Source of the DNA: an uncultured Ruminococcus sp.
GTDB lineage: Bacteria > Bacillota > Clostridia > Oscillospirales > Ruminococcaceae
Length of the DNA stretch: 43,486 nt
Direction of reading: 5' to 3'
Assembly (NCBI RefSeq): GCF_902762735.1
Contig: NZ_CACWPP010000037.1
Span: 1 to 43,486, forward strand
Part shown: piece by piece, positions 1 to 29,816 of the stretch
Position numbering within the stretch: position 1 is the stretch's first letter
Layout: every line of letters begins with the position of its first letter
The notes under the pieces: model-generated
The model's input: the letters and a program-made list of their open reading frames with translations, nothing else
What the model was told of the DNA's origin: nothing
Databases searched by the model: none
Position numbers and translations under genes: made by a program

Positions 1-155
1 GGTTATCCCGCTGACACACCACAAAAACAGCGGCTATACAGAACTTAAGGTTCTTGGCGTATATCTTTCCCCCGCCGCAGGCGGGGGAAAGATATGGGGT
101 GCTCAATTATCCTTTTGTTCACCGCATTTTTAGTTGGTGTGCTAAAGGGATAGTC
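1..155 (+). repeat. Type 1 hairpin-core repeat, copy A
   Basis: Non-coding element directly downstream of atpG. It begins GGTTATCCCGCTGACACACCA and ends in TTGGTGTGCTAAAGGGATAGTC, which are imperfect terminal inverted repeats. In the middle is a 16-bp perfect stem (ATATCTTTCCCCCGCC, loop GCA) at about 63-97. Its left end lies at the window edge, so any flanking duplication cannot be seen. It falls where atpD would normally follow atpG, so the transcript probably carries this hairpin between cistrons, or the operon ends here. Confidence 0.8.
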
Positions 156-165
156 ATATTATGAA

Positions 166-1026
166 TTACGAATTATCATTAAGGCTTGCCGAGCTTATCT
201 CGGTTATCTCCTGAGTTATCTGTGCCTGTCTTGCGCGGTTGTAGAGCAGTGACAGCTTGTCGATCATCTCGCTTGCGTTGTCGCTGGCAGACTCCATCGC
301 CGTTCTTCTTGCAGCCTGCTCACTGGCAAAGCTGTCAACTATGGCAGAATAGAGCATGCCGCCCATATATTCGGGTATCAGGCTGTCAAACACAGCTTCG
401 GGCGAGGGATCGTATATGGTCATCGGGTGCTTTTTGCCCAGATATTCCAGATTTTCAACAGGCAGTATCCTCAGATGCTGAGGTTCCTGCGTCATCACCG
501 AAACGAATGTGGTGTAGACCAGTTCCACCGCATCAAAGTCGCCCAGCTTGAACCTGTCCACGACCTTGTTCGCTATCATCATCGCGTCGATAAGTTCGAT
601 GCCCTCAGCTATCTGCGGGAAACCGTCTATCAGCTTGTATTCGCGCTTCTCAAAGAACTCAACAGCCTTTTTGCCTATCGCCATTATAACAGCCTCACCG
701 CCGCTTGCCTGTATCTCATCAGCCTTAGCCTTAGCCAGCTTCAGCACATTCGAGTTGAAGCCGCCCGCAAGCCCTCTGTCACCTGCAATAACTATCAGCA
801 GTACCGAGTTTTTGAACTTCTTCTTGGTGAACACCGAAGTAAATTCGTGGTCGCGGGAAATATCCGCCATCACCTGGAATACGCCCTCAAAAAACGGGTG
901 TACCGCCTCAGCACGCTCTTTGGCTTTCCTCATCTTCGAGGACGCGACCAGCTGCATCGCTTTGGTGATCTGCATGGTGCTTTCCACGCTCTTTATACGG
1001 CGCTTAACGTCCTTCATGTTAGCCAT
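166..1026 (-). CDS. atpG: F1 ATP synthase gamma subunit
   Basis: Central rotor shaft of F1, coupling c-ring rotation to the catalytic alpha/beta hexamer at the inner face of the membrane. The 286-aa length and the N-terminus (MANMKDVKRRIKSVESTMQI, then TKAMQLVA) are typical of the family, as is the C-terminal helix with NRARQAQITQEITEI. The start has a GGAGAG site about 7 nt upstream and lies 12 nt after the atpA stop, so it is co-transcribed with atpA. No atpD or atpC follows inside the window; the next 165 bp hold a repeat element. Family assignment is firm. Confidence 0.97.
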   Translation of the reverse strand: MANMKDVKRRIKSVESTMQITKAMQLVASSKMRKAKERAEAVHPFFEGVFQVMADISRDHEFTSVFTKKKFKNSVLLIVIAGDRGLAGGFNSNVLKLAKAKADEIQASGGEAVIMAIGKKAVEFFEKREYKLIDGFPQIAEGIELIDAMMIANKVVDRFKLGDFDAVELVYTTFVSVMTQEPQHLRILPVENLEYLGKKHPMTIYDPSPEAVFDSLIPEYMGGMLYSAIVDSFASEQAARRTAMESASDNASEMIDKLSLLYNRARQAQITQEITEISSASLNDNS

Positions 1027-1038
1027 AAGCCGCTCTCC

Positions 1039-2553
1039 TTACTTCTGCTTTACAAACTTCTCCGCGAAATCTTTCAGCACTTCTTTCAGCGCCTTTTCGT
1101 TCTCAGCGGTAAGTTCTTTGGTGTCCCTTATGGAAGCCAGTATATCGGGGTGAGCCTCATCGAGGTGTATGAACAGATCCTTCTCGTACTCACGAATATC
1201 CTCAACAGGTATGCTCTTTAGATAGTTGTTTACAACAGCGTAGATTATAACTACCTGCTTCTCAACATCAACAGGGGAGTTCTTCGACTGTTTCAGCACT
1301 TCAACTATACGTTCGCCCTGTGCCAGTCTGTCTTTGGTATCCTGGTCGAGGTCCGAGCCGAACTGCGAGAAGCTCTGCAATTCTCTGTACTGCGAATATA
1401 GCAGTTTCAGCGGACCCGAGACTTTCTTCATAGCCTTTATCTGCGCCGAACCGCCGACACGCGATACCGAGATACCGGGGTTTACCGCAGGTCTTACGCC
1501 CGAGAAGAAAAGCTCTGTTTCAAGGAATATCTGACCGTCTGTGATGGAGATAACGTTTGTAGGTATGTAAGCCGAAACGTCGCCCGCCTGAGTTTCTATG
1601 ATAGGCAGTGCGGTTATCGAACCGCCGCCGTTCTCTTCATTCAGACAGCATGCTCTTTCAAGCAGTCTTGAATGCAGATAGAATACATCGCCTGGATAAG
1701 CCTCTCTTCCCGTCGGTCTTTTCAGCAGCAGCGACATTGTTCTGTATGCCACCGCATGCTTTGAAAGGTCATCATAAACGCAAAGCACATCCTTGCCCTG
1801 AAGCATGAAGTACTCAGCCATAGCAACGCCCGCATAAGGCGCTATGTACTGCAAAGGCGCCATCTCGGAAGCCGTTGCCGAAACTACGATGGAGTAGTCC
1901 ATAGCATCGTTCTTTGTCAGTGTATCAACGATGTTCGCTACCGTCGAGATCTTCTGACCGATGGCAACATATATACAGATGACGTTCTTGCCCTTCTGGT
2001 TGATTATGGTATCCAGCGCGATAGTAGTCTTTCCTGTCTGTCTGTCGCCTATAATAAGTTCACGCTGACCTCTGCCGACGGGTATCATCGAGTCGATAGC
2101 CTTGATGCCTGTCTGTAAAGGTCTGCTTACCGATTTTCTTGTGATTATGCCGAAAGCGGGGCTTTCAACGGGTCTTGTCTCGTTTGTGAGTATCGCACCC
2201 TTGCCGTCTATGGGCGCACCCAGCGCGTTAACGACTCTGCCCAGCATAGCTTCGCCCACAGGCACCGAAACTATCCTGCCTGTACGCTTAACGGTCGAGC
2301 CTTCTCTGATGCCCTCCTCAGTACCCAGCAGAACACAGCCCACGAAGTCCTGTTCGAGGTTCATCGCCATGCCGTAGGTACCGTTATCAAACTCCAGCAG
2401 TTCGCCCGACATGCACTTATCCAGACCGTTTACTCTGGAAATACCGTCGCCCACTGTGCATACAGTGCCGACATCGTCCAGCACCAGCTTGGTGCGGTAA
2501 TTTTTGATCTGTGATTTTATCAGACCTGTTATTTCATCAGGACGTAAATTCAT
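1039..2553 (-). CDS. atpA: F1 ATP synthase alpha subunit
   Basis: Non-catalytic nucleotide-binding subunit of the F1 hexamer. The protein is 504 aa, the usual length. The P-loop GDRQTGKTT is near residue 170, and the signature [17 protein letters not shown], with the conserved arginine that reaches the beta-subunit active site, is near residue 360. It lies between atpH (39 nt upstream) and atpG (12 nt downstream). The ribosome site upstream of the ATG is modest (GAAGGGAACGG). Confidence 0.98.
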
Positions 2554-2592
2554 ATTTTTCCGTTCCCTTCTGTACGTTTAAATAAAATAGCA

Positions 2593-3141
2593 CTACGCGA
2601 TAGTGTTTGTGATCTGTGCTTTCAGCTTGCCGAGCCTTGTCCTCACGCTGGAGTCCAGCTCCGTATTGCCGTAGCGCACCACGATACCGCCTATTATCGA
2701 CTTGTCCACCTCTTCGGTCAGCACTATGTTCCTGCCTGTGGACTTTGACAGCTTGTCAGTCAGGCGCTTTCTCAGCTCAGCCGTCAGCGGTGATGCGGTT
2801 ATGGCAGTAACTTCGAGTATGTTCTTCTCGTCGTTGTACATCTTCCTGAACTCGGCATAGATCTCGCCCAGCTTGTCTGCCCTGCCCTTTTCAGCCACAA
2901 GGCACAGGAAATCCAGCAGCAGACCCTCCAGCCTGCCGCCGAAAACAGTGTTAAGGCTCTCAGCCTTCTCCCTGCCCGCGATAAGGGGCGATGACAGGAA
3001 CTTTATGTAATCGGCGCAGTCGTCCGTCCGCATAAGTTCATCAAAATCGGTGAACCCGCTGAAAACGCTCTCCAGCTTATCCTGTTCAGTACACAGTTCA
3101 AACAGCGCGGTGCTGTAAACCTTGCCTACCGTTTCAGCCAT
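2593..3141 (-). CDS. atpH: F1Fo ATP synthase delta subunit
   Basis: Peripheral-stalk subunit (OSCP/delta family) that holds F1 to the b subunits. It is 182 aa, with the N-terminal helical domain (AETVGKVYSTALFELC) and the C-terminal conserved stretch VDKSIIGGIVVRYGNTELDSS. The start codon overlaps the atpF stop (TGATG), so translation is coupled. This family is poorly conserved, but the position between atpF and atpA fits. Confidence 0.95.
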   Translation of the reverse strand: MAETVGKVYSTALFELCTEQDKLESVFSGFTDFDELMRTDDCADYIKFLSSPLIAGREKAESLNTVFGGRLEGLLLDFLCLVAEKGRADKLGEIYAEFRKMYNDEKNILEVTAITASPLTAELRKRLTDKLSKSTGRNIVLTEEVDKSIIGGIVVRYGNTELDSSVRTRLGKLKAQITNTIA

Positions 3142-3656
3142 CAGTTCTCACCCACATTGTCGATGAATTCGCTTATCAGCCGCTCGTTGTCGGCACCCGA
3201 AAGATCCTTTTCGATAACAGCCTGCGCCGCCTGGAATGCAATATCTGTAATATCGTCCTTGATCTTGTTCACAGCGATCTTCTTCTCGCGCTCTATCTCA
3301 TTTCTCGCCTGCTCGGTGATGCCCTTAGCCTCCACCTTTGCATCAGCGATTATCTCATCACTTCTCTGCTGCGCCTTGCGTGTAGCCGCCTGTATTATCT
3401 GCGCAGACTCTTCCTTTGCGCCGCTTATGCGCTGCTCGTACTCCTGCTCGAGCTGTTTGGCGTGTTCTTCCGCCTCGTCAGCCTTCTTGTAAGTTTCCGC
3501 TACCTCGTTCTTCCTGTCCTCCATCACCTTGTTCACCTTATCGAACAGGAAGTGCTTCAGCACCAGAAACAGTATTAGCAGGTTGAGCCATGTGGCGATA
3601 ATGGTAGTGAGATTTATCGACAGAAAATCCGTCACATCTCCTGCTGACATTATCAT
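3141..3656 (-). CDS. atpF: Fo ATP synthase b subunit
   Basis: Peripheral-stalk b subunit: one N-terminal membrane helix (about residues 13-34, TIIATWLNLLILFLVLKHFLF), then a long charged coiled coil rich in Glu, Lys and Ala. The chosen start is the ATG at 3656, 8 nt after GGGAGG; an in-frame TTG two codons upstream and a second ATG two codons downstream are alternatives. This gives 171 aa. The stop overlaps the atpH start. Only one b-type gene is present, so the stalk is presumably a homodimer. Confidence 0.96.
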   Translation of the reverse strand: MIMSAGDVTDFLSINLTTIIATWLNLLILFLVLKHFLFDKVNKVMEDRKNEVAETYKKADEAEEHAKQLEQEYEQRISGAKEESAQIIQAATRKAQQRSDEIIADAKVEAKGITEQARNEIEREKKIAVNKIKDDITDIAFQAAQAVIEKDLSGADNERLISEFIDNVGEN

Positions 3657-3711
3657 CTGCAAAACCTCCCTTTATCTGTATGCAAAACCGTTATAACAAT
3701 ACTATGCTATA

Positions 3712-4029
<318 letters not shown>

Positions 4030-4401
4030 TTACTTATTTTTTCGACAAACGCGGGTGTTCAAAGCCTTTATAGCCCACCGCCCGCAAAATGTCATCGCCG
4101 TTTTCAAGCCTTGCTTCGCCGACATCATCGCGCCTGCAAAGCCCCCCGAAAACATATCCTGCCACCCTTGCCGCACAGGAAGGTCTGTGCAGTTAACGGC
4201 TTCTGTATTCGGCACGCCCAGCACCATGCAGGGCTGATATTCCCTGAAAAACACCCTTACCGTCAGCCGCCTGTTGTCTTTAGGCACAGACAGCGGGTAA
4301 GATATAACAGGGAAGACCGAAATATCGTTTTCATCATATCTGTACGCCCACAGGTACTCTCTGCCGCCGACAGAAAGTTCCTCAGCTTCGGGCTTTTCAT
4401 A
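4030..4401 (-). pseudogene. Frame-disrupted ORF between atpB and atpE
   Basis: This 370-bp stretch shows coding character but no intact frame. An ATG at 4400, one base after the atpB stop, reads only 44 codons. Adding one A to its AAAA run would give MKKPEAEELSVGGREYLWAY and continue in the frame that follows atpB through FFREYQPCMVLGVPNTEAVN. Near 4160-4180 a different frame becomes the better one, ending VAGYVFGGLCRRDDVG, then EARLENGDDILRAVGYKGFE and HPRLSKK, with many GNN codons. At least two frame breaks are implied. No family recognised. A start at the in-frame GTG at 4287 would give 85 aa but has no ribosome site. A sequencing error is possible. Confidence 0.5.
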
Positions 4402-5127
4402 TCATTCTTCTGCCGCCGCCGCAACGTTAACCATCGTCAGCGTAGAGAATATGTATGCCTGTATACAGCCCGAGAACAGGTCGAAATATACCGACAGCAC
4501 CGCAGGTATACCTACCTGCAATACGCTGAATGCCCACGAAGCGAACTCAAAATGCAGATGCAGTGCCTCAGACGCATTTCCCAGCGCCGAATACAGCAGA
4601 CCTGTTATTACCATGCCGCCCGCAACGTTGCCAAAAAGACGGAACGCCATCGAAGCGGGAGTAGCTATCTCACTGATAAGGTTCAGCGGCAGTATGAAAG
4701 CCACAGGCTGTGCGAAGCCCTTGAGGTAGCCCAGAAAACCGTTCGCCTTTATCTTGTGGAACGTTATCAGCACGAATGTGACTATCGCCCACGCCGCCGT
4801 AACGTTTATGTCCGCCGTCATCGAACGCAGACCCACCATGCTTATCAGTGCGCCCAGCACCGCCGATACCAGCAGTGTGCCGATGTACGGGGCGTAGTAC
4901 ATCATCTTCTCGCCCATCGAAGTCCTGACCATGTTGTTGACAAATCCAACGAACATCTCAGCCACTATCTGCTTTTTGCTTTCGGGCTTCTTTTTGAGGT
5001 CTCTGGTCAGCCACAGACAAAGCAGTGTGACCACAACGATTATCAGCCAGCCCATTACCACCGTTTCCGTAAAAATCAGCGGACCTATCGTAAAGACGAT
5101 CTTGGGACCGTCACCTAATCCTTCCAT
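4402..5127 (-). CDS. atpB: Fo ATP synthase a subunit
   Basis: Stator channel subunit of Fo that passes the coupling ion to the c-ring. It has 241 aa with five to six hydrophobic segments. The motif SMAFRLFGNVAGGM contains the essential arginine facing the ring, and the last helix contains LSVYFDLFSGCIQAYIFSTL. It follows atpI by 6 nt and is followed by the disrupted ORF, whose longest open stretch is in the same frame beyond the TGA stop. Confidence 0.97.
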   Translation of the reverse strand: MEGLGDGPKIVFTIGPLIFTETVVMGWLIIVVVTLLCLWLTRDLKKKPESKKQIVAEMFVGFVNNMVRTSMGEKMMYYAPYIGTLLVSAVLGALISMVGLRSMTADINVTAAWAIVTFVLITFHKIKANGFLGYLKGFAQPVAFILPLNLISEIATPASMAFRLFGNVAGGMVITGLLYSALGNASEALHLHFEFASWAFSVLQVGIPAVLSVYFDLFSGCIQAYIFSTLTMVNVAAAAEE

Positions 5128-5133
5128 AAACGC

Positions 5134-5562
5134 CTATCCTTTCCTGCCGATGAAGTGATCGGCTGTTAGTATCATTCGCGGGAAAAGCTGAGGTATCAGC
5201 ACACCCGTAAAGTTTGCAAGACCCGTATATGCGGCGGCACAGCTTATCAGCACCAGCGCCGACATCCTCAGCGCATAGCAGGTGCGCATCTTCCTGACGG
5301 CGGCTTTTCTGTCCAGCGTGACAGCTGTTTCACAGCACCGTCCGAAATACATATACTGCCCGCACATGAAAGCGTAGCCGATGCCGAACCCCAGAAGCTG
5401 AGAGAACTTAAAGCCCCACAACAGCGTCACCGCAAAGCAGAATGCTGTCATTACAGCGCCCCACCTGCATATCATCGAAAGCAGCGGCTTTATCACCGAC
5501 CCGCCGCCCGAAAGCGCCGTATCTTCTCTGTTTTCCAAATCTGATCTCCGCCTTTCGGTCAC
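5134..5562 (-). CDS. atpI: ATP synthase subunit I-like membrane protein
   Basis: Small membrane protein (142 aa) at the head of the operon, with about four hydrophobic segments (residues 27-50, 53-72, 93-115 and 118-135). AtpI proteins are poorly conserved and are thought to assist c-ring assembly or Mg2+ supply. The assignment rests on position, size and topology more than on motifs. A cytosolic charged N-terminus (MTERRRSDLENRED) precedes the first helix. Confidence 0.8.
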   Translation of the reverse strand: MTERRRSDLENREDTALSGGGSVIKPLLSMICRWGAVMTAFCFAVTLLWGFKFSQLLGFGIGYAFMCGQYMYFGRCCETAVTLDRKAAVRKMRTCYALRMSALVLISCAAAYTGLANFTGVLIPQLFPRMILTADHFIGRKG

Positions 5563-5681
5563 AGCACAAAACTAAACTCGCACATACAAATTTATTATAA
5601 CATCTTTTGAAATTTTTTTAAAGGGGTTTTCAAGTTATCTCCTGATATTTTACAAATTATTAACAAAACTATCTGCTATTT

Positions 5682-5708
5682 TTAGTAAAATATGCGCCAA
5701 TTTACTAA
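5682..5708. promoter_or_regulatory. Inverted repeat in atp leader
   Basis: TTAGTAAA and TTTACTAA form an 8-bp inverted repeat separated by 11 nt in the atp operon leader, about 15-40 nt after the expected transcript start. It could be a protein site or a weak RNA stem. No regulator is recognised. Confidence 0.35.
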
Positions 5709-5730
5709 CTGTTGGTCATTTATTTGCATT

Positions 5731-5759
5731 ATTATACCATCTGGCTCAAATGTTGTCAA
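5731..5759 (-). promoter_or_regulatory. Consensus sigma-A promoter of the atp operon
   Basis: On the minus strand TTGACA (5759-5754), a 17-nt spacer and TATAAT (5736-5731) match the vegetative consensus at all 12 positions. Transcription would start near 5724 and give a leader of about 160 nt before atpI. A perfect core promoter is unusual unless a repressor restrains it; see the adjoining palindrome. Confidence 0.85.
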
Positions 5760-5766
5760 TTGGCAA

Positions 5767-5783
5767 AATGACCAATGGTCATT
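5767..5783. promoter_or_regulatory. Perfect 17-bp palindrome, likely operator
   Basis: AATGACCA-A-TGGTCATT is perfectly symmetrical and sits 8 bp upstream of the -35 box of the atp promoter. The half-site TGGTCATT recurs at 5713-5720, just after the expected start, with a poor second half (4 of 8). Sites on either side of the core promoter suggest a dimeric repressor with cooperative or looped binding. The regulator family is unknown. Confidence 0.6.
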
Positions 5784-5789
5784 AATTGT

Positions 5790-5946
5790 CGCCTGTCCGT
5801 ATTGTGATGTGTGACAGCCCTCATCGGCAGGGAAGCCCCATGTTCTCCGTTGATAACAGTCCTCTATGCCCAAATAATATAAGGGACGGCACTGTGTCAG
5901 CCGCATCTGTGTCTGCGCTGTCCGCGCACGCAGTTTTATTTTGAAC
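5790..5946. other. Intergenic stretch without recognised feature
   Basis: Between the palindrome and the chimeric repeat lies about 155 bp of moderately GC-rich sequence with several short CTGTGTC-like repeats. No convincing reading frame with a ribosome site, and no recognised RNA family, could be seen on either strand. Confidence 0.4.
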
Positions 5947-6093
5947 TCCCAGTTTTGATGTGTATTGCTGATGATACAAAATGGCTGTTCTTTCGTATTG
6001 TTCCCCCGCCTTCGGAGGGGGAAAGATAACCGCCAACTGTATTTGGTTCCCGATATAACATCGTTTATTTTGGTGTATCAGCGGGATGATCAC
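5947..6093. repeat. Chimeric type 2/type 1 hairpin repeat, copy D
   Basis: The left half (TCCCAGTTTTGATGTGTATT through TTTCGTATTGTTCCCCCGCC) is the type 2 arm. The right half, from GGGGGAAAGATAACCGCCAA to TCAGCGGGATGATCAC, is the type 1 arm. The join is in the shared GC-rich core at about 6003-6026. The outer stem no longer pairs, one core pair is a G/A mismatch, and the ends have no matching flanking duplication. All this fits recombination between two elements. Confidence 0.75.
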
Positions 6094-6169
6094 ATTGAAA
6101 AAACGCCTGTTTTTTCGCGCCGCATCAGGGAAGCGCAGAACCGATCCCGTGTTATTCATATTTTACATC

Positions 6170-6198
6170 TTGACTTTATTTTGGGGATATGATAAAAT
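6170..6198 (+). promoter_or_regulatory. Promoter of the glycosyltransferase gene
   Basis: TTGACT (6170-6175), a 17-nt spacer and TAAAAT (6193-6198). A perfect 14-bp palindrome, ATAGTATATACTAT, follows at 6218-6231 in the early transcribed region and could be an operator, though AT-rich palindromes also arise by chance. Confidence 0.6.
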
Positions 6199-6294
6199 TA
6201 GACTACATATAACATATATAGTATATACTATGTAAAAATTTACCTGCCCACAGCGGGCTCGATGATGTTTTTGGTGGGAAAGGAGGCGTTCTGC

Positions 6295-7209
6295 ATGGCA
6301 CGGCTGACAGGAAGAAAAAAGTCACGGCATATACTTGGCAGTGTGGCTGGCTATAAATTGCCGAAATATAGTGTGCTGATGTCGGTGTACGACAAGGAAA
6401 TGCCCGAAAATCTGAACCAGAGCCTTGAATCTATGCTGAAACAGACCTACCCGCCCTCTGATTTCGTGCTGGTCTGTGACGGCAAGCTGACCAATGAGCT
6501 TGATGTGATAATCAAGTCTTTCCAGAATGAGTACAAAAAAATATTCCGCATAGTGCGCATAGATGAGAACGTTGGTGCGGGCAAAGCGGTCAACAAGGGC
6601 ATAAAGGCATGCAGATGCGAATATATAGTGCGCATGGACAGCGACGATGTTTCAAAGCCCGACAGGTGCATGAAGGAGATGCTGATGTTTGCGGTGATGC
6701 CCGAACTTGATATTGTCGGCAGTTTCGTGGAGGAGTTCGATGATTATACCGACAAGACCATCTCGCTGAAAAAAGTGCCGCTGGTGCAGAAAGATATACT
6801 CAGCTATTCAAAGCGCCGCAACCCGTTCAACAGGCAGACGGTGGCTTTCCGTAAAAGCAAGGCGATGGAAGTCGGCGGGTACAGTGACCTGAAACTCTGC
6901 GAGGACTACGAGTTTGCCGTGCGTATGCTGGCAAACGGCGCGGTGGGGCAGAATATCCCCGAAGTGCTGGTGCGCTACCGCGTGAGTGAAAGCACACCCG
7001 AGATACGCCGCAGCTGGCGGCTGACAAAGGGCTTTGTGGCAGTGCGCTGGAAATTGTTCATTGAGGGCTATATAGGTTTCAGGGATTTCTTTCCGCCCTG
7101 CTTTTTACAGCTGATGCTTTTTGTACTGCCCATGCGCTTCACAAGATGGTTTTACAGGAAATTCCTGCGCGATACAAAGATAACTCCGCCCACTGCGGAT
7201 AATGTATGA
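6295..7209 (+). CDS. Family 2 glycosyltransferase
   Basis: Cytosolic or membrane-associated GT-A enzyme that transfers a sugar from a nucleotide donor, probably to a surface polysaccharide. The start is the ATG at 6295, 8 nt after AGGAGG; an upstream in-frame ATG at 6262 lacks a site. The result is 304 aa. The N-terminal fold has KYSVLMSVYDKEMPE, and the metal-binding DxD-like motif RMDSDD is at about residues 114-118. LCEDYEFAVRMLANG corresponds to the acceptor/base region (the ED motif of the family). The C-terminal region has a hydrophobic, membrane-associating stretch near FFPPCFLQLMLFVLPMRF. It appears monocistronic. Donor and acceptor cannot be told. Confidence 0.9.
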   Translation: MARLTGRKKSRHILGSVAGYKLPKYSVLMSVYDKEMPENLNQSLESMLKQTYPPSDFVLVCDGKLTNELDVIIKSFQNEYKKIFRIVRIDENVGAGKAVNKGIKACRCEYIVRMDSDDVSKPDRCMKEMLMFAVMPELDIVGSFVEEFDDYTDKTISLKKVPLVQKDILSYSKRRNPFNRQTVAFRKSKAMEVGGYSDLKLCEDYEFAVRMLANGAVGQNIPEVLVRYRVSESTPEIRRSWRLTKGFVAVRWKLFIEGYIGFRDFFPPCFLQLMLFVLPMRFTRWFYRKFLRDTKITPPTADNV

Positions 7210-7227
7210 GAGAAAAAAGGATATTTC

Positions 7228-7257
7228 AAACGGCATCATATGAAGTGAATGCCGTTT
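7228..7257 (+). terminator. Hairpin after the glycosyltransferase gene
   Basis: A perfect 9-bp stem, AAACGGCAT / ATGCCGTTT, with a 12-nt loop lies 18 nt after the stop. No T run of note follows, so termination would be weak; the family 3 repeat that begins 9 nt later may add to it. Confidence 0.45.
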
Positions 7258-7265
7258 GCTGTATA

Positions 7266-7366
7266 TATAGCAATCCGCCTTAAAATTCAGACAAAATCCA
7301 GTCACAAAATCCATATATCCGAGCTTTTGCGACCGGATTTTGTGAATTTAAATAGTTGGATTGCTA
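7266..7366 (+). repeat. Family 3 long-TIR repeat, copy 1
   Basis: About 101 bp with long imperfect inverted arms. The left arm reads TAGCAATCC, then TTAAAATTCA, CAAAATCC and GTCACAAAA; the reverse of the right arm reads TAGCAATCC, TTAAATTCA, CAAAATCC and GTCGCAAAA. Related copies are at 16808-16896 and 18102-18204. The ends fall at TA, as in miniature elements of Tc1/IS630-type transposases, but no transposase is in the window. Confidence 0.8.
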
Positions 7367-7397
7367 GAGAGTTTCAAGGTGAAACGGGGGTATTTAA

Positions 7398-9074
7398 ATG
7401 AAGGGTAATATCAAAAAAATGCTGGCGCTGACACTTGCACTTACCATCAGCGCGGGGCTTTTCGGCTGTGGTGAGAACGGCGGCGAAAAAGCCGAAAGCA
7501 AGGCGGAAAACAGTTCTGCGGCAGAAAGCAGTGAGGTCAAGGAAAAAGCGCCTGTGACGGAAACTATCGGCGATTTTGACCTTTCCGAACTGACTGACGA
7601 ATATGACGTGCCTGCCGATTTTGAGCTGACTGTCGAGGGCGAGAGCGGCGAGATGGTCAACCAGTCGTTCGTGATGGATAAGGCGTTCGCGGGCGATTTT
7701 TCGGGCGAGGGCTATGTGGCTGTGCCCGAACAGGGCGATGAAGTCACCTTTGAGGTGGAACTTCCCGCGAAAGGCAGTTACGACATTATAATGACGATGG
7801 CGACCGACAACAAGGGTTCGATGAACCTGATAACCGTTGACGGCAATGCGGCAGTAAAGTTCAGGGCAGAAGACCCGAAGTTCGCTGAGGTCAGGGCTGA
7901 AAGCGTGCTGATAGACGGCGGCAAGCACACGCTGGGCGTTCGCGGCGATACGGGACATATCTACCTGGACAGCCTGAAGATAGTGCCTGCACCTGCGGTG
8001 GATATTTCAAAGTTCGAGGTCACGCCCGACCTCTGCAACCCCAACGCCAGCGACAACGCGAAAAGGCTGTACAGCTTCATGCGGGCATGCTACGGCAAGT
8101 ATACCATTTCGGGTCAGTATTCGGGCGATAATGAGGGCAAGGACAGCCGCGAGTTCAAGGAGATAGACAAGCGCACAGGCAAGTCTCCCGCCATACTGGG
8201 TCTTGATGTGGGAAATCTGGGCATATCCACCATGATAGACCATCAGGTGGGCGGCGGAGATATGGTGCCTCTCCAGGCGATGGACTGGTACAACAACAAT
8301 AACGGCATAGTTACAATGTGCTGGCACTGGCATGCACCCGCAAAGTATCTGGAAGTCAACGGCCAGCCCTGGTGGAGGGGCTTCTACACCGACAGCACCA
8401 GCTTCGATCTTGGCAAAGCCATGAGCGGTGAGGATAAAGAGGGCTATGATGCCATAGTTGCCGAACTTGATAATATGGCACAACAGCTGAAACCTCTGGC
8501 TGATGCCGATGTGCCGATACTCTGGAGACCTCTTCACGAAGCGGCGGGCGACCCGAAATATCCGGGCAAGGCATGGTTCTGGTGGGGCGCATCGGGCAAA
8601 AAAGCCTACCTCGAACTCTACAAGCTGATGTACGACAAGTTCGTTAACGAGTATCAGCTGAATAACCTGATATGGGTCTGGAATGCGCAGAACAAGGACT
8701 GGTATCCGGGCGACGAGTATGTTGACATAGTGGGATACGACTGCTACCCTGCCGAGAAAGACAGTTCTTCGCAGAAGGAGTATTACGAATTTCTGGCAGA
8801 GTGCTCACCTTCGGGCAGCAAGATAATTGCCGAGACCGAGAACGGCTCGATGTTCGACCCCGATGCCGCTTTCAATGAAGGCACAAGATGGTCATACTTT
8901 GCCACATGGAACGGCGAGTTCACCATAAAGGACAAACAGCTGTCAGAACAGTATACCACCTTTGATATGTGGGATAAGATATACGCAAGCGAAAAGGTCC
9001 TTACTCTTGATGAACTGCCCGACCTCAAAAGCTGGCCCATCGACCTTGACGCTTATCTTGCCGAAAACAAGTAG
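7398..9074 (+). CDS. Cell-surface lipoprotein GH26 beta-mannanase
   Basis: Endo-acting beta-mannan hydrolase (558 aa) predicted to be anchored on the outer face of the membrane. A signal peptide ends in the lipobox L-F-G-C24, followed by a Ser/Glu-rich linker to about residue 65. Residues 75-198 look like a carbohydrate-binding beta-sandwich (VADFELTVEGE-type start, HIYLDSLKIVPAP end, CBM35-like). The GH26 domain covers about 205-545, with acid/base E381 in WRPLHEAAG and nucleophile E479 in IIAETENG, plus MCWHWHAP. It has no dockerin, unlike the other secreted proteins here, so it would act at the cell surface and not on a scaffold. Mannan specificity is inferred from the family; xylanase activity also exists in GH26. 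Confidence 0.92.
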   Translation: MKGNIKKMLALTLALTISAGLFGCGENGGEKAESKAENSSAAESSEVKEKAPVTETIGDFDLSELTDEYDVPADFELTVEGESGEMVNQSFVMDKAFAGDFSGEGYVAVPEQGDEVTFEVELPAKGSYDIIMTMATDNKGSMNLITVDGNAAVKFRAEDPKFAEVRAESVLIDGGKHTLGVRGDTGHIYLDSLKIVPAPAVDISKFEVTPDLCNPNASDNAKRLYSFMRACYGKYTISGQYSGDNEGKDSREFKEIDKRTGKSPAILGLDVGNLGISTMIDHQVGGGDMVPLQAMDWYNNNNGIVTMCWHWHAPAKYLEVNGQPWWRGFYTDSTSFDLGKAMSGEDKEGYDAIVAELDNMAQQLKPLADADVPILWRPLHEAAGDPKYPGKAWFWWGASGKKAYLELYKLMYDKFVNEYQLNNLIWVWNAQNKDWYPGDEYVDIVGYDCYPAEKDSSSQKEYYEFLAECSPSGSKIIAETENGSMFDPDAAFNEGTRWSYFATWNGEFTIKDKQLSEQYTTFDMWDKIYASEKVLTLDELPDLKSWPIDLDAYLAENK

Positions 9075-9088
9075 ATATTATAAAACAT

Positions 9089-9242
9089 GGTTATTCCGCT
9101 GACACGCCACAAAAACATTGGTTCTGCGGGATCTAAGGTTGTCAGCGTATATCTTTCCCCCGACGCAGGCGGGGAAAAGATATTGTGCGCTCAATTATCC
9201 TTATATTTACCGCATTTCAATTGATGTGCTAAAGGGATAACC
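9089..9242 (+). repeat. Type 1 hairpin-core repeat, copy B1
   Basis: Starts 12 nt after the mannanase stop. Its ends are the most symmetrical of the family: GGTTATTCCGCTGACACGCCA and the reverse of its right end, GGTTATCCCTTTAGCACATCA. The core stem around 9146-9182 (ATATCTTTCCCCCG... GGCGGGGAAAAGATAT) has accumulated mismatches. A type 2 element follows after 11 bp. Confidence 0.8.
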
Positions 9243-9253
9243 ATAAAATAAAA

Positions 9254-9394
9254 TCCCAATTTGGTTGTGTATTGTTCCCCCGCCGAAGGCGGGGGAACAA
9301 TACGAAAGAACAGCCATTTTGTATCATCAGCAATACACATAAAAATTGGGAAACAGCCATTTTGTATCATCAGCAATACACATAAAAATTGGGA
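9254..9394 (+). repeat. Type 2 hairpin-core repeat, copy B2
   Basis: Ends are TCCCAATTT and AAATTGGGA. The core is a perfect 16-bp stem, GTATTGTTCCCCCGCC with loop GAA. The 43-bp right arm (9309-9351) is repeated exactly at 9352-9394. The nine bases AAAATAAAA occur immediately to the left (9245-9253) and one base to the right (9396-9404), as expected of a target-site duplication. Confidence 0.85.
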
Positions 9395-9400
9395 GAAAAT

Positions 9401-9438
9401 AAAAAGTGCGCGGCTGATATATCGGCGGCGCACTTTTT
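9401..9438 (+). terminator. Terminator of the mannanase transcript
   Basis: AAAAAGTGCGC pairs with GCGCACTTTTT around a 16-nt loop that can extend the stem (GATATATC). It lies 330 nt past the mannanase stop; repeats B1 and B2 separate the gene from it. Confidence 0.8.
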
Positions 9439-9493
9439 GTCTGCAAGGGCGGAAGGTATACCGCAGATTTATAAAAACAGGCTTTGCAGGGTA

Positions 9494-9522
9494 TTGCAAA
9501 GCGCGGAAAAATATGCTATAAT
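9494..9522 (+). promoter_or_regulatory. Promoter of leuS
   Basis: TTGCAA (9494-9499), 17 nt, TATAAT (9517-9522), with an extended -10 (TGC before the hexamer). The leader is only about 60 nt and contains a small hairpin GCCCGT-AAGG-ACGGGC (9541-9556). It is too short for a T-box, which is otherwise common on aminoacyl-tRNA synthetase genes of this phylum. Confidence 0.75.
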
Positions 9523-9589
9523 AAGAGTTGGAATTTTTTCGCCCGTAAGGACGGGCATATCATAACATTTCAAAAGGTGATGAATTTTA

Positions 9590-12019
9590 ATGAAGAATTA
9601 CGATTACAGCGCCATTGAGAAAAAATGGCAGAAGTATTGGGAGGAGCATGAGACTTTCAAAACAGATGTCTGGGATTTCAGCAAGCCTAAGTTCTATGCG
9701 CTTGACATGTTCCCCTATCCGTCAGGCGTGGGTCTGCATGCAGGTCACCCCGAAGGCTATACCGCCAGCGATATAGTTTCCAGAATGAAGAGAATGCAGG
9801 GCTACAACGTTCTGCACCCGATGGGCTATGACTCTTTCGGTCTGCCTGCCGAACAGTATGCGGTGACAACAGGCAACCACCCCAACGGCTTCACTCAGGA
9901 GAATATCAAGACTTTCTCCAAACAGCTGAAAGAACTGGGCTTTGACTACGACTGGTCGAAGATGATAGCTACATCTGACCCCGAGTACTACAAGTGGACA
10001 CAGTGGATATTCAAACAGCTCTACCTGGACGGCTATGCAAAATATATCGACATGCCCGTAAACTGGTGCGAAGAGCTGGGCACTGTGCTTTCAAACGATG
10101 AGGTCATCGACGGCAAGTCCGAGCGCGGCGGCTACCCCGTTGTAAGAAAGAACATGAAGCAGTGGGTCATCGACCAGCCCGCTTTTGCAGAAAAACTGCT
10201 GGAGGGTCTTGACGAGATAGACTGGCCCGAGTCAACAAAATCCATGCAGCGCAACTGGATAGGCAAGTCAACAGGCGTTGAGGTGGAATTCGATATAGTG
10301 GGCGGCGGAAAGTTCTCCATCTTCACCACTTGTATCGAAACCATCTACGGCATCACTTTCATGGTGCTCGCCCCCGACGGCGCTATCACCGAGAGCCTGC
10401 TGGACAGGGTGCAGAACCGCGAGGAAGTTCAGGCTTATATTGACGAGACCAAGAAGAAAAACGATATGGACCGCACCGAGCTGAACAAGACCAAGTCGGG
10501 CTGTGAGCTGAAAGGCGTTACCTGCATAAACCCAGTAAACGGCAAGGAAGTGCGCATGTTCATCGGCGACTTCGTGCTGGCAAGCTACGGCACAGGCGCG
10601 GTAATGGCTGTACCGAGCCACGACCAGCGTGACTTTGAGTACGCGGTTGCCCACAATATCGACATGATACAGGTCATCGACGGCAAGGACGGTCACATCG
10701 ACGTTACCGATGCCGCTATGGAAAAGACCGAGTATCTGGGCAAGGGCTATAAGCTGATAAATTCTGAGGAATTCACAGGTCTGACCGTTGAGGAGGCTAA
10801 GGAAGCCATCACCGTCAAGCTGGAGAAGATGGGCAGAGCAAAGCGCACTGTCAACTACCACTTCCGTGAGTGGATATTCGCACGCCAGAGATACTGGGGC
10901 GAACCTGTGCCTGTGGTTCATACCGAGAACGGCATTCATGTACTCGATGATGAAGAACTGCCCCTTATCCTGCCCGAACTGGACGACTATAAGGGTAAGA
11001 ACGGCAAAGCACCTCTTGAGAACGCGACCGAATGGAAAAAGTACGACAGAAACGGCATAAAGGGCGTTCGCGAAACTTCCACAATGCCTGGCAGTGCAGG
11101 TTCGAGCTGGTATTTCCTGAGATATATCGACCCGCACAACGACAAGGAGTTCGCAAATCAGGAACTGCTGAAACACTGGATGCCTGTTGACCTCTACATC
11201 GGCGGACCCGAACACGCGGTAGGTCATCTGATGTATTCGCGTATCTGGAACAGATACCTGTACGATAAGGGTCTTGCACCTACCAAAGAGCCTTTCAAGA
11301 AGCTGGTGCATCAGGGCATGATACTGGGCGAGAACGGCGTAAAGATGGGCAAGCGCTTCCCGAAGTACGTCGTGAACCCATCTGATATAATCAGAGATTT
11401 CGGCGCGGATACCCTGAGACTCTACGAGATGTTCATGGGACCTCTGGAAGTTTCCAAGCCCTGGAGCCAGAGCGGTGTTGAGGGCGCAAAGCGCTTCCTG
11501 AACAGAGTGTGGAACTTCTTTACCGAAGAAAGCAATATCACCGAAGATAACAACGGTGCGCTGACTAAGGTATACCACCAGACTGTAAAGAAGGTCACAG
11601 ATGACTACGAACAGCTGGCATTCAACACAGCGATCGCACAGATGATGATATTCGTGAACGCAGTCTACAAGAACGGCAGCTGCCCGAGAGAGTATGCTGA
11701 GGGTCTTATCAAGATGCTGTCCTGCATCTCGCCGCATATCGGTGAGGAGATATGGAGCATTCTGGGTCACGATGATACCATCGCTTACGAAAGCTGGCCG
11801 ACCTACGATGAAGCTGAACTGGTAGAAGACACTGTCGAGATCGCTGTACAGGTCAACGGCAAGGTAAAGGCAAAGCTGAACATCGCTAAGGACGAAGCTA
11901 AGGACAAGGTGCTGGCTGATGCAAAGGCTGAGGAGAGCATAGCAAAACTCATTGACGGCAAAACTGTTGTCAAGGAGATATATGTTCCTAATAAGCTGGT
12001 AAATATCGTGGTAAAGTAA
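9590..12019 (+). CDS. leuS: Leucyl-tRNA synthetase
   Basis: Charges tRNA-Leu with leucine in the cytosol. It has 809 aa, normal for bacterial LeuRS. The class I HIGH-type motif is HAGH (residues 50-53), after PYPSGVGL. An editing (CP1) domain follows, with TGAVMAVPSHDQRDFEYA. The tRNA-binding anticodon domain begins with the typical DADTLRLYEMFMGPL-like stretch (here GADTLRLYEMFMGPL). The usual KMSKS loop is replaced by K585-M-G-K-R, so the second lysine is kept but the serines are lost. The start has AAAGGTGATG about 9 nt upstream. The gene is monocistronic. Confidence 0.98.
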   Translation: MKNYDYSAIEKKWQKYWEEHETFKTDVWDFSKPKFYALDMFPYPSGVGLHAGHPEGYTASDIVSRMKRMQGYNVLHPMGYDSFGLPAEQYAVTTGNHPNGFTQENIKTFSKQLKELGFDYDWSKMIATSDPEYYKWTQWIFKQLYLDGYAKYIDMPVNWCEELGTVLSNDEVIDGKSERGGYPVVRKNMKQWVIDQPAFAEKLLEGLDEIDWPESTKSMQRNWIGKSTGVEVEFDIVGGGKFSIFTTCIETIYGITFMVLAPDGAITESLLDRVQNREEVQAYIDETKKKNDMDRTELNKTKSGCELKGVTCINPVNGKEVRMFIGDFVLASYGTGAVMAVPSHDQRDFEYAVAHNIDMIQVIDGKDGHIDVTDAAMEKTEYLGKGYKLINSEEFTGLTVEEAKEAITVKLEKMGRAKRTVNYHFREWIFARQRYWGEPVPVVHTENGIHVLDDEELPLILPELDDYKGKNGKAPLENATEWKKYDRNGIKGVRETSTMPGSAGSSWYFLRYIDPHNDKEFANQELLKHWMPVDLYIGGPEHAVGHLMYSRIWNRYLYDKGLAPTKEPFKKLVHQGMILGENGVKMGKRFPKYVVNPSDIIRDFGADTLRLYEMFMGPLEVSKPWSQSGVEGAKRFLNRVWNFFTEESNITEDNNGALTKVYHQTVKKVTDDYEQLAFNTAIAQMMIFVNAVYKNGSCPREYAEGLIKMLSCISPHIGEEIWSILGHDDTIAYESWPTYDEAELVEDTVEIAVQVNGKVKAKLNIAKDEAKDKVLADAKAEESIAKLIDGKTVVKEIYVPNKLVNIVVK

Positions 12020-12136
12020 TAATGGCAGTTTTCTTTACCACGCCGTCCGATGACGTTTTTTGTATATTATTGTCAAAATAACCAAAATATGAACGAAAAT
12101 ATTTGCAGATAAATTTTAAAAATATTTTCAAGGCTA

Positions 12137-12165
12137 TTGACTTTTCGGGTGAAATATAGTATAAT
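12137..12165 (+). promoter_or_regulatory. Promoter of rpsU
   Basis: TTGACT (12137-12142), 17 nt, TATAAT (12160-12165). It gives a leader of about 160 nt before the TTG start of rpsU. The leader has short inverted repeats (for example CACC-CTTGT-GGTG near 12262-12273) but no recognised regulatory RNA. A 4-bp hairpin with TTTTTT at 12047-12062 may be a weak leuS terminator just upstream. Confidence 0.75.
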
Positions 12166-12330
12166 AAATTTGTAATTTATTCGACTGTCATGTTTCCGCA
12201 GATCTTAGACAGAGAATGACGTTTTTGCGTTACAAGTTTGCACAAAGCAGACCTTCACTATCACCCTTGTGGTGTGCGGGAGCGGTTGAATGATTACCTC
12301 TGTCACAGGTGGCAAAGGGAGGGAAACATT

Positions 12331-12504
12331 TTGGCAGAAATTCGTGTTGGCAAGAACGAAACTCTGGATACCGCTCTCAAGCGTTTTAAGAGATCATGCG
12401 CAAGAGATGGCGTTATCGCTGAGGTTCGTAAGAGAGAACACTACGAAAAGCCTTCGGTAAAGCGCAAGAAGAAGTCCGAAGCTGCTCGTAAGCGCAAGTA
12501 TTGA
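12331..12504 (+). CDS. rpsU: Ribosomal protein bS21 (TTG start)
   Basis: Small-subunit protein near the 3' end of 16S rRNA, 57 aa: [20 protein letters not shown], then [16 protein letters not shown] and a basic tail [14 protein letters not shown]. The start is a TTG at 12331, 7 nt after a strong AGGGAGGG site. A longer in-frame reading from 12238 would add 31 residues unlike S21 and is rejected. It is monocistronic, with its own promoter and terminator. Confidence 0.95.
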
Positions 12505-12518
12505 TATGAATTTAAAAA

Positions 12519-12549
12519 AGCGGATACTTTGGTATCCGCTTTTTCTTTT
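12519..12549 (+). terminator. Terminator of rpsU
   Basis: A 9-bp stem, AGCGGATAC-TTTG-GTATCCGCT, followed by TTTTCTTTT and preceded by A-rich sequence, 14 nt after the rpsU stop. Textbook intrinsic terminator. Confidence 0.9.
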
Positions 12550-12627
12550 GCGGCGTTCACTTCAGCGTGCCGCGAACTTTGGCTGTTTAGTATGGTGTGT
12601 CAGCGTGACAGCCATATTTTATTTTGT

Positions 12628-12874: not shown

Positions 12875-12897
12875 ATATTTTATTTTGTATAAAAGAC

Positions 12898-18048: not shown

Positions 18049-18101
18049 AGTATCACTCCTTCATCGTGAACGTTTTTCTCCCGCTTTCGCCGTGTATCGC
18101 C

Positions 18102-18204
18102 ATAGCGATCCAACTGTTTAAATTCACAAAATCCAGTCGCAAAAGCTCGTATCTATGGATTTTGTGACCGGATTTTGTCTGAATTTTAAGGCGTATCGCT
18201 ATAA
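18102..18204 (-). repeat. Family 3 long-TIR repeat, copy 3
   Basis: About 103 bp, in the opposite orientation to the copies at 7266 and 16808. It starts TAGCGATCCAACTGTTTAAA and ends AAGGCGTATCGCTATA. It lies in the space between rsmI and the transglutaminase-dockerin gene, about 55 bp before the latter's start. Confidence 0.8.
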
Positions 18205-18236
18205 TGCCGCAATATCAGTTCTGCCGAAACGTGGGA

Positions 18237-20332: not shown

Positions 20333-20369
20333 CAGTTGTTCCATATAAGATCACTCTATTACCGAATAC

Positions 20370-20511
20370 GACTATCTCTTTAGCACACCACTGCAAAATA
20401 CCTTGTTGATGTTATCTTTCCCCCGCCGCAGGCGGGGGAAAAGATAACCGCCAACTGTATTTGGTTCCCGATATAACATCGTTTATTTTGGTGTATCAGC
20501 GGGATGATCAC
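20370..20511. repeat. Type 1 hairpin-core repeat, copy G, with 12-bp flanking duplication
   Basis: Starts GACTATCTCTTTAGCACACCA and ends TGGTGTATCAGCGGGATGATCAC. The core stem GTTATCTTTCCCCCGCC with loop GCA is at about 20411-20449. ATTACCGAATAC is found immediately on both sides (20358-20369 and 20512-20523). The right end supplies the stop codon of the 54-aa gene. Confidence 0.88.
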
Positions 20512-20672
20512 ATTACCGAATACTCGAAATTCTCCCATTTAAGTGTCATGCCCTCATCGGTCTCATCAGGCAGAAGTGCCATAGCCACGAGTATGTCCTC
20601 ACCGTTTTCGGTGTTGGTGAGATGTGCGTAGTCGCCGTCTATACGTGCCACTTTGTAAATTATCGGTGTCAT
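20508..20672 (-). CDS. 54-aa protein downstream of dnaE
   Basis: Small acidic protein, MTPIIYKVARIDGDYAHLTN, then TENGEDILVAMALLPDETDE and GMTLKWENFEYSVM. GGAGGG lies 6 nt before the ATG, and the gene starts 24 nt after the dnaE stop, so it is co-transcribed. The TGA stop belongs to the end of repeat G. Removing the repeat and one copy of the 12-bp duplication restores ...EYSVIE followed by TGA, so only the last two residues were changed. The short length fits a family of small proteins that accompany dnaE/pfkA loci, but I do not recognise it. Confidence 0.8.
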   Translation of the reverse strand: MTPIIYKVARIDGDYAHLTNTENGEDILVAMALLPDETDEGMTLKWENFEYSVM

Positions 20673-24227: not shown

Positions 24228-24512
24228 CGCCCCGCCCGAACAGCCTTTCAGCAGCATAAAATAGCCGGCGGCTTTTTTTCGCCCGCCCGAACAGCCAGCC
24301 TGCGCATTACCGTTTCTCCGCCATGCCATCACATTACAGCACAGCAAGACCCGTCCGGCATAAAATAGCCGGCGGCTTTTTTTGCCCGCCGAAATGCCCG
24401 CCTGCGCATTACCGTTTCTCCGCCATGCCATCACATTACAGCACAGCAAGACCCTTCCAACATAAAGCGGGCGATCCGTTTCACTTCGCCGAATTGCCCG
24501 CCTGCGCATTAT
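24228..24512. repeat. Tandem repeat array of about 104-bp units
   Basis: Units start GCATAAAATAGCCGGCGGCT at 24254 and 24358, with partial units before 24254 and after 24460. The shared segment includes CCTGCGCATTACCGTTTCTC and GCCATGCCATCACATTACAG. Each full unit contains a short AGCC-GGC-GGCT stem followed by T7, which may weaken transcription. It lies upstream of dnaE and next to a type 2 repeat; no gene is seen. No clear dnaE promoter could be found in 24135-24260. Confidence 0.8.
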
Positions 24513-24519
24513 TTGTGTA

Positions 24520-24617
24520 TCCCAATTTGGTTGTGTATTTTTCCCCCGCCGAAGGCGGGGGAAAAATACGAAAGAACAGCCATTTTGTATCATCAGCAAT
24601 ACACATCAAAATTGGGA
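24520..24617 (+). repeat. Type 2 hairpin-core repeat, copy E
   Basis: The shortest complete type 2 copy, 98 bp: TCCCAATTTGG left end, AAATTGGGA right end. The core stem is GTATTTTTCCCCCGCC with loop GAA. Compared with copies B2 and C the stem pair G-C (GTATTG / CAATAC) is changed to T-A (GTATTT / AAATAC), a compensatory double change. It ends 9 bp from the stop of cobD. Confidence 0.85.
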
Positions 24618-24625
24618 GTATTGTG

Positions 24626-25737: not shown

Positions 25738-25995
25738 CACAAGCCCCTCACAGCCCCACTCCCACAAACCCCACTCCCTTTTTCAACTTTCCGACCCTCA
25801 ACCCGTTGAAAAAACGCACTCTTCACAAGCCCCGCACAGCCCCACTCCCACAAAACCCCACTCCCTTTTTCAACTTTCCGACCCTCAAACCGTTGAAAAA
25901 AACGCACTCCTCACAAGCCCCGCACAGCCCCACTCCCACAAAACCCCACTCCCTTTTCAACTTTCCAACCCTCAAACCGTTGAAAAAAAGCCCCT
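25738..25995. repeat. Three tandem 86-88-bp units with G-quadruplex motifs
   Basis: Each unit reads ACAAGCCCC..., then a C-rich block, CTTTTTCAACTTTCC and CCGTTGAAAAAA. The minus strand of each block is GGG-AGT-GGGG, a 5-6-nt loop, GGG-AGT-GGGG (25754-25778, 25840-25865, 25928-25953), a canonical four-tract quadruplex pattern. The array lies upstream of the cobD promoter. Open frames through it are repetitive and have no ribosome site, so I treat it as non-coding. Confidence 0.9.
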
Positions 25996-28919: not shown

Positions 28920-29167
28920 TGAGTTTCTCTCCTCTCTTCAAAATAATATCAACACACCTATACGATTTTATTATACTACATTTTTTCAGAAAAATAAAGA
29001 CCTTTTGCGAATATTTTTTTTATTTGGGGTAAAAATATTTTTGCAGTCAAAAGCATCTGCCCGTCCGCTTTGCAGCGGGGCAGGCGCGGCGGCGGGAACG
29101 GTCTGTGCCGCCCGCTCGTCCCGCTGTCTTTACGGACGCGGCAGAGATCATCAGGGGGGAAAACAGC
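28920..29167. other. Divergent murC/spoVG intergenic region
   Basis: The left part is AT-rich and should hold the murC promoter (minus TATAAT at 28975-28970) and a spoVG promoter that I could not place with confidence. The right part is very GC-rich. It includes a hairpin CTGCC...CCGCT / AGCGG...GGCAG at 29057-29083 and further GGCGGG/CCCGCC pairings, so the spoVG leader should be strongly folded. No open frame is convincing. Confidence 0.5.
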
Positions 29168-29443
29168 ATGGAGATAACAGGCATAAAGATCAGGAAAATA
29201 CTTGAACACGGACGTTTGCGCGGCATAGTCAGCGTTACTTTTGACGATGTGTTCGCAGTGCATGATATTAAAATAGTGCAGGGCGAACACAGGCTGTTCG
29301 TTGCCATGCCCAGCAGACGCGATGAAAGCGGAAGCTACCGCGACATCGTCCACCCCATAACTCCGTCAGCGCGTGAGGCGATAGAAGCGCAGGTGCTTGA
29401 CGCATTTATGGAAGAACAGCACAGGCACGGCAAAACACAGTAA
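29168..29443 (+). CDS. spoVG: SpoVG-family regulatory protein
   Basis: 91 aa. The start is MEITGIKIRKI, 7 nt after a GGGGGGA site; upstream in-frame codons lack a site. Family signature: VTFDDVFAVHDIKIVQGEHRLFVAMPSRR and DIVHPITPSAREAIEAQVLDAF. SpoVG proteins bind DNA/RNA and affect septation and sporulation in Firmicutes. Here it stands alone, not next to purR or glmU as in Bacillus. Confidence 0.95.
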   Translation: MEITGIKIRKILEHGRLRGIVSVTFDDVFAVHDIKIVQGEHRLFVAMPSRRDESGSYRDIVHPITPSAREAIEAQVLDAFMEEQHRHGKTQ

Positions 29444-29567
29444 ATAGAAAGCGTAAACCGCCCGCACAAAAGCTGTAAAGCGCTCAGGCGTAAAATAAGA
29501 TACTTTATTGCTTTGCGAAAACGTTACCATTCTTTTAATTATGGGATATGTTAAGAAAAGTATAGTA

Positions 29568-29602
29568 TTGACTATTCCAATAACGGTCACTTGTGCTATA
29601 AT
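29568..29602 (+). promoter_or_regulatory. Candidate promoter of the ABC exporter operon, over-long spacer
   Basis: An extended -10, TGC-TATAAT (29597-29602), is preceded by TTGACT (29568-29573), but the spacer is 23 nt instead of 17. Either the extended -10 acts alone or an activator distorts the spacer. The leader is about 300 nt and contains repeat F and a perfect 12-bp palindrome, GGGAGATCTCCC, near 29833-29844. Confidence 0.5.
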
Positions 29603-29655
29603 TAATAGGATTTCAGATCTCGGCTGTCAGGCACATCGCTGTATAAATTTTTTTT

Positions 29656-29816
29656 ATGACTATCCCTTTAGCACACCAACTAAAAATGCGGTAAACAAAA
29701 GGATAATTGAGCGCCCCATATCTTTACCCCGCCTGCGGCGGGGTAAAGATAACCGCCAACTGTATTTGGTTCCCGATATAACATCGTTTATTTTGGTGTT
29801 TCAGCGGGATGATCAC
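29656..29816. repeat. Type 1 hairpin-core repeat, copy F
   Basis: Starts ATGACTATCCCTTTAGCACA and ends TTTCAGCGGGATGATCAC. The core stem is TATCTTTACCCCGCC with loop TGC and GGCGGGGTAAAGATA; the C-G pair of other copies is replaced by A-T, a compensatory change. AATTTTTTT is found on both sides (29646-29654, 29817-29825). The left arm matches copy A, the right arm copies D and G. It lies in the leader of the ABC operon. Confidence 0.82.

Follow-up and report, generated by a model that had tools for sequence, protein, structure and literature searches.

Correia elements (NEMIS) of Neisseria come in two length forms. Functions involving RNase III processing, IHF and promoters are described for them in excerpts of one account (PMC10969869); the elements considered here are compared with them by sequence alone. 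Insertion sequences (IS) of the IS1595 family follow a rule of 8-bp target duplication, as stated in part of another source (PMC8101967). Template switching at short inverted repeats homogenises the two arms and inverts the spacer, and spacers, those of 3 nt among them, are fully inverted where the flanking arms have about 10 bp or more, according to the excerpted portions of two studies (PMC8604942, PMC8794818); loop inversions are rare in the rRNA data of one (PMC8794818, in part). The subject here is a set of short repeats, termed type 1, with inverted ends and often a central GC-rich hairpin, in a contig (C37) of an uncultured Ruminococcus sp., all 43,486 nucleotides of which constitute the window. 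The genome consists of 4.06 Mb in 242 contigs; its AtpA protein and the AtpA of Ruminococcus albus KH2T6 share 98% identity. The host genome is R. albus-like and carries type 1 miniature inverted-repeat transposable elements (MITEs) at a few hundred copies. No description of these elements was found among the papers listed on Ruminococcus MITEs, IS1595 MITEs and R. albus insertion sequences.

The type 1 elements are likely to be non-autonomous MITEs of an IS1595-family IS, and the covariation in their palindrome is likely to reflect template switching rather than selection of an RNA fold. A transposase acting in trans would recognise ends of roughly 24 bp and make 8-bp duplications on insertion into AT-rich, mostly intergenic sites, with the central palindrome as an optional passenger. 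A polymerase that switches template on the DNA palindrome would copy one arm onto the other, producing paired changes, and would also flip the 3-nt spacer and occasionally join halves of different elements. To judge from its footprints, such switching probably accounts for most of the covariation, and exchange of hairpin for hairpin may have spread one core through several MITE families.

Type 1 elements are MITEs by anatomy: they are short (mostly 126-165 bp), non-coding, present in many copies and bounded by imperfect inverted ends. An 18-mer of one end, with at most one mismatch, occurs 158 + 142 times in the genome (0 + 0 for the reversed control) and is present, counting the window's own, in 10 of 29 genomes from the genus. 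The hairpin core, TTCCCCCGCC-NNN-GGCGGGGGAA, occurs at 306 places in the genome with at most one mismatch (0 in the control) and in 11 of the 29 genomes, again including the window's own. Because the reversed-control counts are zero for both, the repeats are not due to chance. The preliminary description of the window had the copies sharing their ends; inverted ends are indeed present, but the two ends are of distinct types, A (TGTGRTTATCCCGCTGAYACACCA) and B (TATGACTATCCCTTTAGCACACCA, source of the 18-mer), and the halves fall into A1/A2 and B1/B2. In a sample of 836,227 bases, 78 end pairs were found, and scoring was limited to the 62 A/B pairs that span no more than 260 bp and do not lie at stretch ends, one end being used in two of the 62. 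Pairs of the same type (four BB, three AA), those with longer spans and those at stretch ends were left out. An exact 8-bp target duplication flanks 34 of the 62, preceded by A in 30 of the 34 and followed by T in 26. A duplication of 9 bp was rejected, as the offset counts favour 8 bp and the A and T target bases mimic 9-10. Only 13 of the 62 overlap a rough open reading frame (ORF) by more than half, versus 88% of random windows, so that the elements are mostly intergenic. No match to them was found in phage records; among plasmid records, only pRUMAL02 of R. albus 7 matched, and weakly, at 75% over 59% of the query.

The main type 1 spans are 149 and 114, the difference being a 35-bp palindrome. 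B1A1 elements number 19 with the hairpin and 19 without it, as called automatically with nested and odd forms counted in. Exact duplications flank 14 of 28 hairpin-free pairs (9 of 13 with span 114) and 20 of 34 hairpin-bearing pairs; since hairpin-free elements carry target duplications too, the hairpin seems dispensable for spread. In a tree built from 43 copies, of which 27 have the hairpin and 16 do not, hairpin state needs five changes (shuffled mean 13.2) and the well-supported branches force only one; because so few are forced, one or a few losses of the hairpin may suffice. Some elements with type 1 ends depart from this plan. Two of the window's genome (L143 near 11562 and L150 near 4713) have a quite different interior (CTGATAGCCGTAATTCAGCG...) that holds other GC-rich inverted stretches, and constitute a further subfamily; another stretch (L047, 14852-15367) has 516 bp, a flanking repeat of 8-10 bp and a further end-like motif, and is perhaps nested.

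A transposase with matching ends, the search for which the preliminary description had proposed, was found in a relative (G002) and as fragments in the window's own genome. The relative has insertion sequences of about 1,020 bp with inverted ends (ATGGTTATCCCTTTAACACACCACA) that match those of type 1. Among 13 fetched copies, 12 have 20 perfectly inverted end bases, and 12 are flanked by an exact 8-bp duplication, which A precedes in 11 of 12 and T follows in 11 of 12. One copy (L153, the only one scanned) codes for a protein of 291 amino acids that matches DDE_Tnp_IS1595 (1e-21), Zn_ribbon_IS1595 (4e-10) and NF033547 (1e-47), which identifies the predicted transposase of this element as IS1595-family. 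The left end of a MITE in the same relative (L170) and the end of the IS are identical for 23-24 bp. The window's genome has six matches to the transposase, the best (87%, residues 168-291) starting from base 3 of contig C167. Four others touch the ends of contigs C4, C33, C130 and C159, and the sixth, on C64, is internal and has stops. Four of the five contig-edge fragments (not that on C4) run into the same end, a similar one in the case of C159. Since most of the fragments sit at the edges of contigs, this genome probably has several copies of the IS, which probably broke its assembly. It is thus true of the window that it has no transposase, as had been noted, but not of the genome, which contains IS1595-family fragments. 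The earlier suggestion that the elements are moved in trans agrees with the ends, 8-bp duplications and target preference of the relative's IS1595 elements; movement by this known kind of transposase is probable, mobilisation itself being read from these signs. An IS256 transposase (PF00872) was rejected as partner: one fragment lies at a contig edge (C175), with no matching end in the first 1,200 bases read.

A second MITE family, with unrelated ends (ATCCCAATTTGG/CTCCCAATTTTGATG), has the same core as type 1, and 8-bp duplications flank 24 of 52 copies, 7 of the 24 being without the hairpin. No autonomous partner was noticed in a partial listing of its ends, and no further search was made. 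The elements of the window belong to the two families as follows.

1-158, minus strand: type 1 MITE, halves B1-A1 (the minus strand reads from B to A); core 67-89.
5946-6094, no strand assigned: chimera of a second-family right half and a type 1 A2 half; core 6001-6023; without target duplication.
9086-9245, minus strand: type 1 MITE, diverged B1-A1; core 9155-9177; without exact target duplication.
9250-9394, plus strand: second-family MITE, ATCCCAATTTGG...AAATTGGGA, with a 43-nt terminal duplication; core 9275-9297.
12625-12877, minus strand: composite type 1 MITE, B2...A2, within which a second-family element lies; cores 12696-12718 and 12784-12806.
12671-12770, plus strand: second-family MITE nested in the composite 12625-12877.
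20367-20512, plus strand: type 1 MITE, halves B2-A2; core 20418-20440; target duplication TTACCGAA.
24519-24618, plus strand: second-family MITE; core 24541-24563; no exact 8-bp duplication seen.
29655-29817, plus strand: type 1 MITE, recombinant halves B1-A2; core 29724-29746; target duplication ATTTTTTT.

All six stretches of the preliminary description were located where it had placed them, with refined boundaries; the supposed half copy at 5947-6093 instead unites a second-family half with one of type 1, and the junction lies within the hairpin. Three of the four testable type 1 copies have exact 8-bp target duplications, the composite among them (TTTTATTT), and the chimera has none. The A end of the copy at 1-158, which is not one of the four, is cut off by the start of the contig, and KH2T6 has no element at the orthologous place beside atpG (a comparison of presence and absence only). 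Six elements in 43 kb had been called dense, and five B ends in 43 kb are somewhat denser than the genome mean of about one per 13.5 kb. A scan of the window against Rfam gave no match at the gathering score and two sub-threshold matches at 12460-12652, the second of which overlaps the type 1 copy at 12625.

Covariation of the stem is seen mainly between families. An alignment was made of 15 hairpins that differ in outer stem, 13 being from Ruminococcus; some rows are related (three share GTTATC), and for four (L196, L197, L201, L207) location in a MITE could not be demonstrated. The 13 Ruminococcus hairpins have 221 cells, of which 99.1% pair and two are unpaired; changes on both sides affect 31 cells, and no cell is altered on a single side. 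This number of two-sided cells was reached by 0 of 500 shuffles, and slid versions of the alignment gave 0 to 6. One measure, the count of further pair types, does not exceed that of the shuffles, 176 of 500 attaining it. For all 15 hairpins, there are 43 two-sided and three unpaired cells. The covariation is real, though marked by the template-switch footprints described below, and so is the change from a C-G to an A-T pair in the copy at 29655-29817 (TTACCCC.../...GGGGTAA). Within families, the picture differs: in the B1A1 core of 40 copies (own genome and relatives), 16 changes are one-sided and one is two-sided, and the outer stem of the same copies has 23 one-sided, 15 two-sided Watson-Crick and five other two-sided changes. 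The core has seven one-sided and two two-sided changes in 20 B2 copies, and 15 and none in 40 second-family copies, for which a register shift makes the outer counts unreliable. Across the 16 pairs of 24 equal-length B1A1 copies of the window's genome, six changes are two-sided and 19 one-sided. The earlier statement that the fold is kept, and not just the sequence, finds support between hairpins of different outer stem; within B1A1, core changes are mostly one-sided.

Selection of the hairpin as an RNA structure, e.g. an RNase III processing site or mRNA-stability signal of the sort known from Correia elements, is in our estimation an unlikely explanation of these changes. It would accord with two-sided changes far above shuffles and slid controls, with a core that varies less than its flanks and with predicted RNA folds that are strong (z of -5.1 to -8.3 for three elements, one of them on both strands), and because of these folds, effects on transcripts are possible. 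It does not accord with between-stem changes that lack one-sided half-steps (one G-U cell in all), with the preponderance of one-sided changes in the core (16 to 1, 7 to 2 and 15 to 0, as above), with target duplications around hairpin-free elements, or with an orientation of neighbouring genes close to that of all gaps (codirectional for 37 of 60 elements and 237 of 381 gaps). The RNA signal entertained in the preliminary description fares poorly on the last two counts and on the terminator calls given below.

The hairpin loops and halves point to a mutation process acting on DNA, which fits them better than selection on RNA. In families assigned by approximate flank motifs, the 3-nt loop reads as the family majority's exact reverse complement in 7 of 40 B1A1 copies, 3 of 20 B2 copies and 2 of 7 copies of family F4, with two other variants in each family; a change from TGC to GCA requires three substitutions. 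Among 90 hairpins, 21 rows are non-canonical, and both halves are clear in ten: five join type 1 to the second family, three are mixed type 1, one is A-A and one B-B. Two of the ten, both mixed type 1, have an exact 8-bp duplication, and the other eight, including all five cross-family chimeras, have none. Because loops are inverted and unlike halves are joined, template switching at a DNA palindrome is favoured over RNA selection, and copying errors at palindromes, rather than a needed RNA fold, are the most likely source of the paired changes.

Several observations weigh against this combination of IS1595 mobilisation and template switching. No complete transposase was seen in the window's own genome. 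Inverted loops are absent from the 40 second-family copies, in which the five other variants include four that are type 1 loops; one inverted-loop copy of this family, outside the count, occurs in a relative (G009, L215). Nine of the 19 one-sided changes in the 24 B1A1 copies leave a G-T pair, which an RNA helix would tolerate. The core arms of these copies deviate by 2.9% and the flanks by 6.0% (p = 0.008), and because variation in the arms is about half that in the flanks, some constraint on core sequence is possible; the inverted ends deviate about as little as the arms (2.5-2.6%). Template switching alone leaves unexplained why the inner 10 bp are constant across families while the outer stem varies.

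In the between-stem alignments, the invariance of the core is by construction, most rows having been found by the core pattern; it was therefore examined in 20 elements of two relatives (G003 and G004) chosen by their end and without a core within one mismatch. By reading, those with a central hairpin hold the same core in decayed form, several have no hairpin, and none with both ends has any other central hairpin; the two elements with other GC-rich inverted stretches in their interior (L143 and L150, above) speak against such uniformity. Beyond the second family, the core is found between other inverted ends in an element of G026 (L225) and, by reading, in additional subfamilies of G003, G014 and G026 whose ends resemble those of type 1. 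Of 391 genomes drawn evenly from the class, three have the exact core: the window's own and two (G314 and G197) of another family of the order. The four exact cores in these two (L229, L230, L232, L234) have the same 20 nt within other, mostly paired outer stems and no visible inverted ends, and are possibly terminators; two near-cores in G010 look, by reading, unlike elements.

That the core is a separately mobile or recognised palindrome, which enters the middles of MITEs with an outer stem that is target or regrown, seems improbable. Its occurrence with different outer stems in families with unrelated ends would be explained, as would the clean presence or absence of 35 bp in type 1 (spans 149 and 114), and the four hairpins without recognisable ends (L196, L197, L201 and L207, in G013 and G014) might be free-standing. 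However, no free-standing core was established (19 of 98 hits are unclassified, several of them decayed or chance), and the 43-copy tree is compatible with one or a few losses. The hairpin also looks old, because its left flank (GTTGTATATC) recurs with it, by reading, in G004, G009, G026 and the window's genome. Exchange at the palindrome is favoured over recognition of the core by something as the cause of its uniformity. We offer only tentatively, as a conjecture that may well be wrong, that the GC palindrome with 10-bp arms is a module common to MITE families across the genus, kept in sequence since something binds, cuts or copies it, with an outer stem rebuilt for each host element.

The GC-rich stem and intergenic location of the elements (the 13 of 62 overlaps given above) could also suggest a bidirectional intrinsic terminator carried between genes, a role that we regard as very improbable. 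The base of the stem is T-rich on the 5′ side and A-rich on the 3′ side on both strands, a terminator tail is absent, and a terminator scan of 1-13000 called none at the six of the nine window cores that lie there. Copies lie between convergent genes in 13 of 60 cases, as do 69 of 381 gaps, a small difference.

Other repeats were observed in the window. A third family, with a length of about 124 bp and ends resembling TATAGCAATCC...GGATTGCTATA, has copies at 7266-7389, 16803-16905 and 18080-18208, and elsewhere a copy lies inside a type 1 MITE (L136, near 11811). A tandem array at 40626-41196 consists of units of about 150 bp with B-end stubs (ATGACTATCCCTTTAGCCAAAA) and a different GC hairpin (GGCGGGAGCAAGCCCCCGCC). 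Three CA-rich tandem units with 87-bp spacing lie between genes at 25738-25991, and two 90-bp direct repeats, 88% alike, with 102-bp spacing at 24275-24466. A 131-bp direct repeat (98%) at 43072-43202 and 43356-43486 ends exactly at the contig end and may be an assembly edge.

Selection of an RNA fold is usually proved by compensatory changes. Because two-sided changes here co-occur with inverted loops and swapped halves, these elements, as hundreds of natural palindrome replicates, can serve as a test bed for template switching that imitates RNA covariation. A further question that they pose is why one core is common to MITE families whose ends are unrelated. Among known systems, IS1595-family insertion sequences and MITEs agree with the present elements in inverted ends, 8-bp duplication and, in the putative partner, a zinc ribbon with a DDE_Tnp_IS1595 transposase; the difference is that the MITEs share only ends with the IS of G002, which is without the central GC palindrome. 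The Correia elements of Neisseria are likewise numerous, short and inverted-ended, with long and internally shorter forms and self-folding of the whole element, but differ in ends and host, and it is by the central palindrome that the length forms here differ. Quasipalindrome template-switch mutation, as excerpted from the two studies cited at the outset (PMC8604942, PMC8794818), has arm homogenisation and complete inversion of a 3-nt spacer in common with these hairpins; in contrast, the present hairpins lie in mobile elements, with halves of different families joined at the palindrome.

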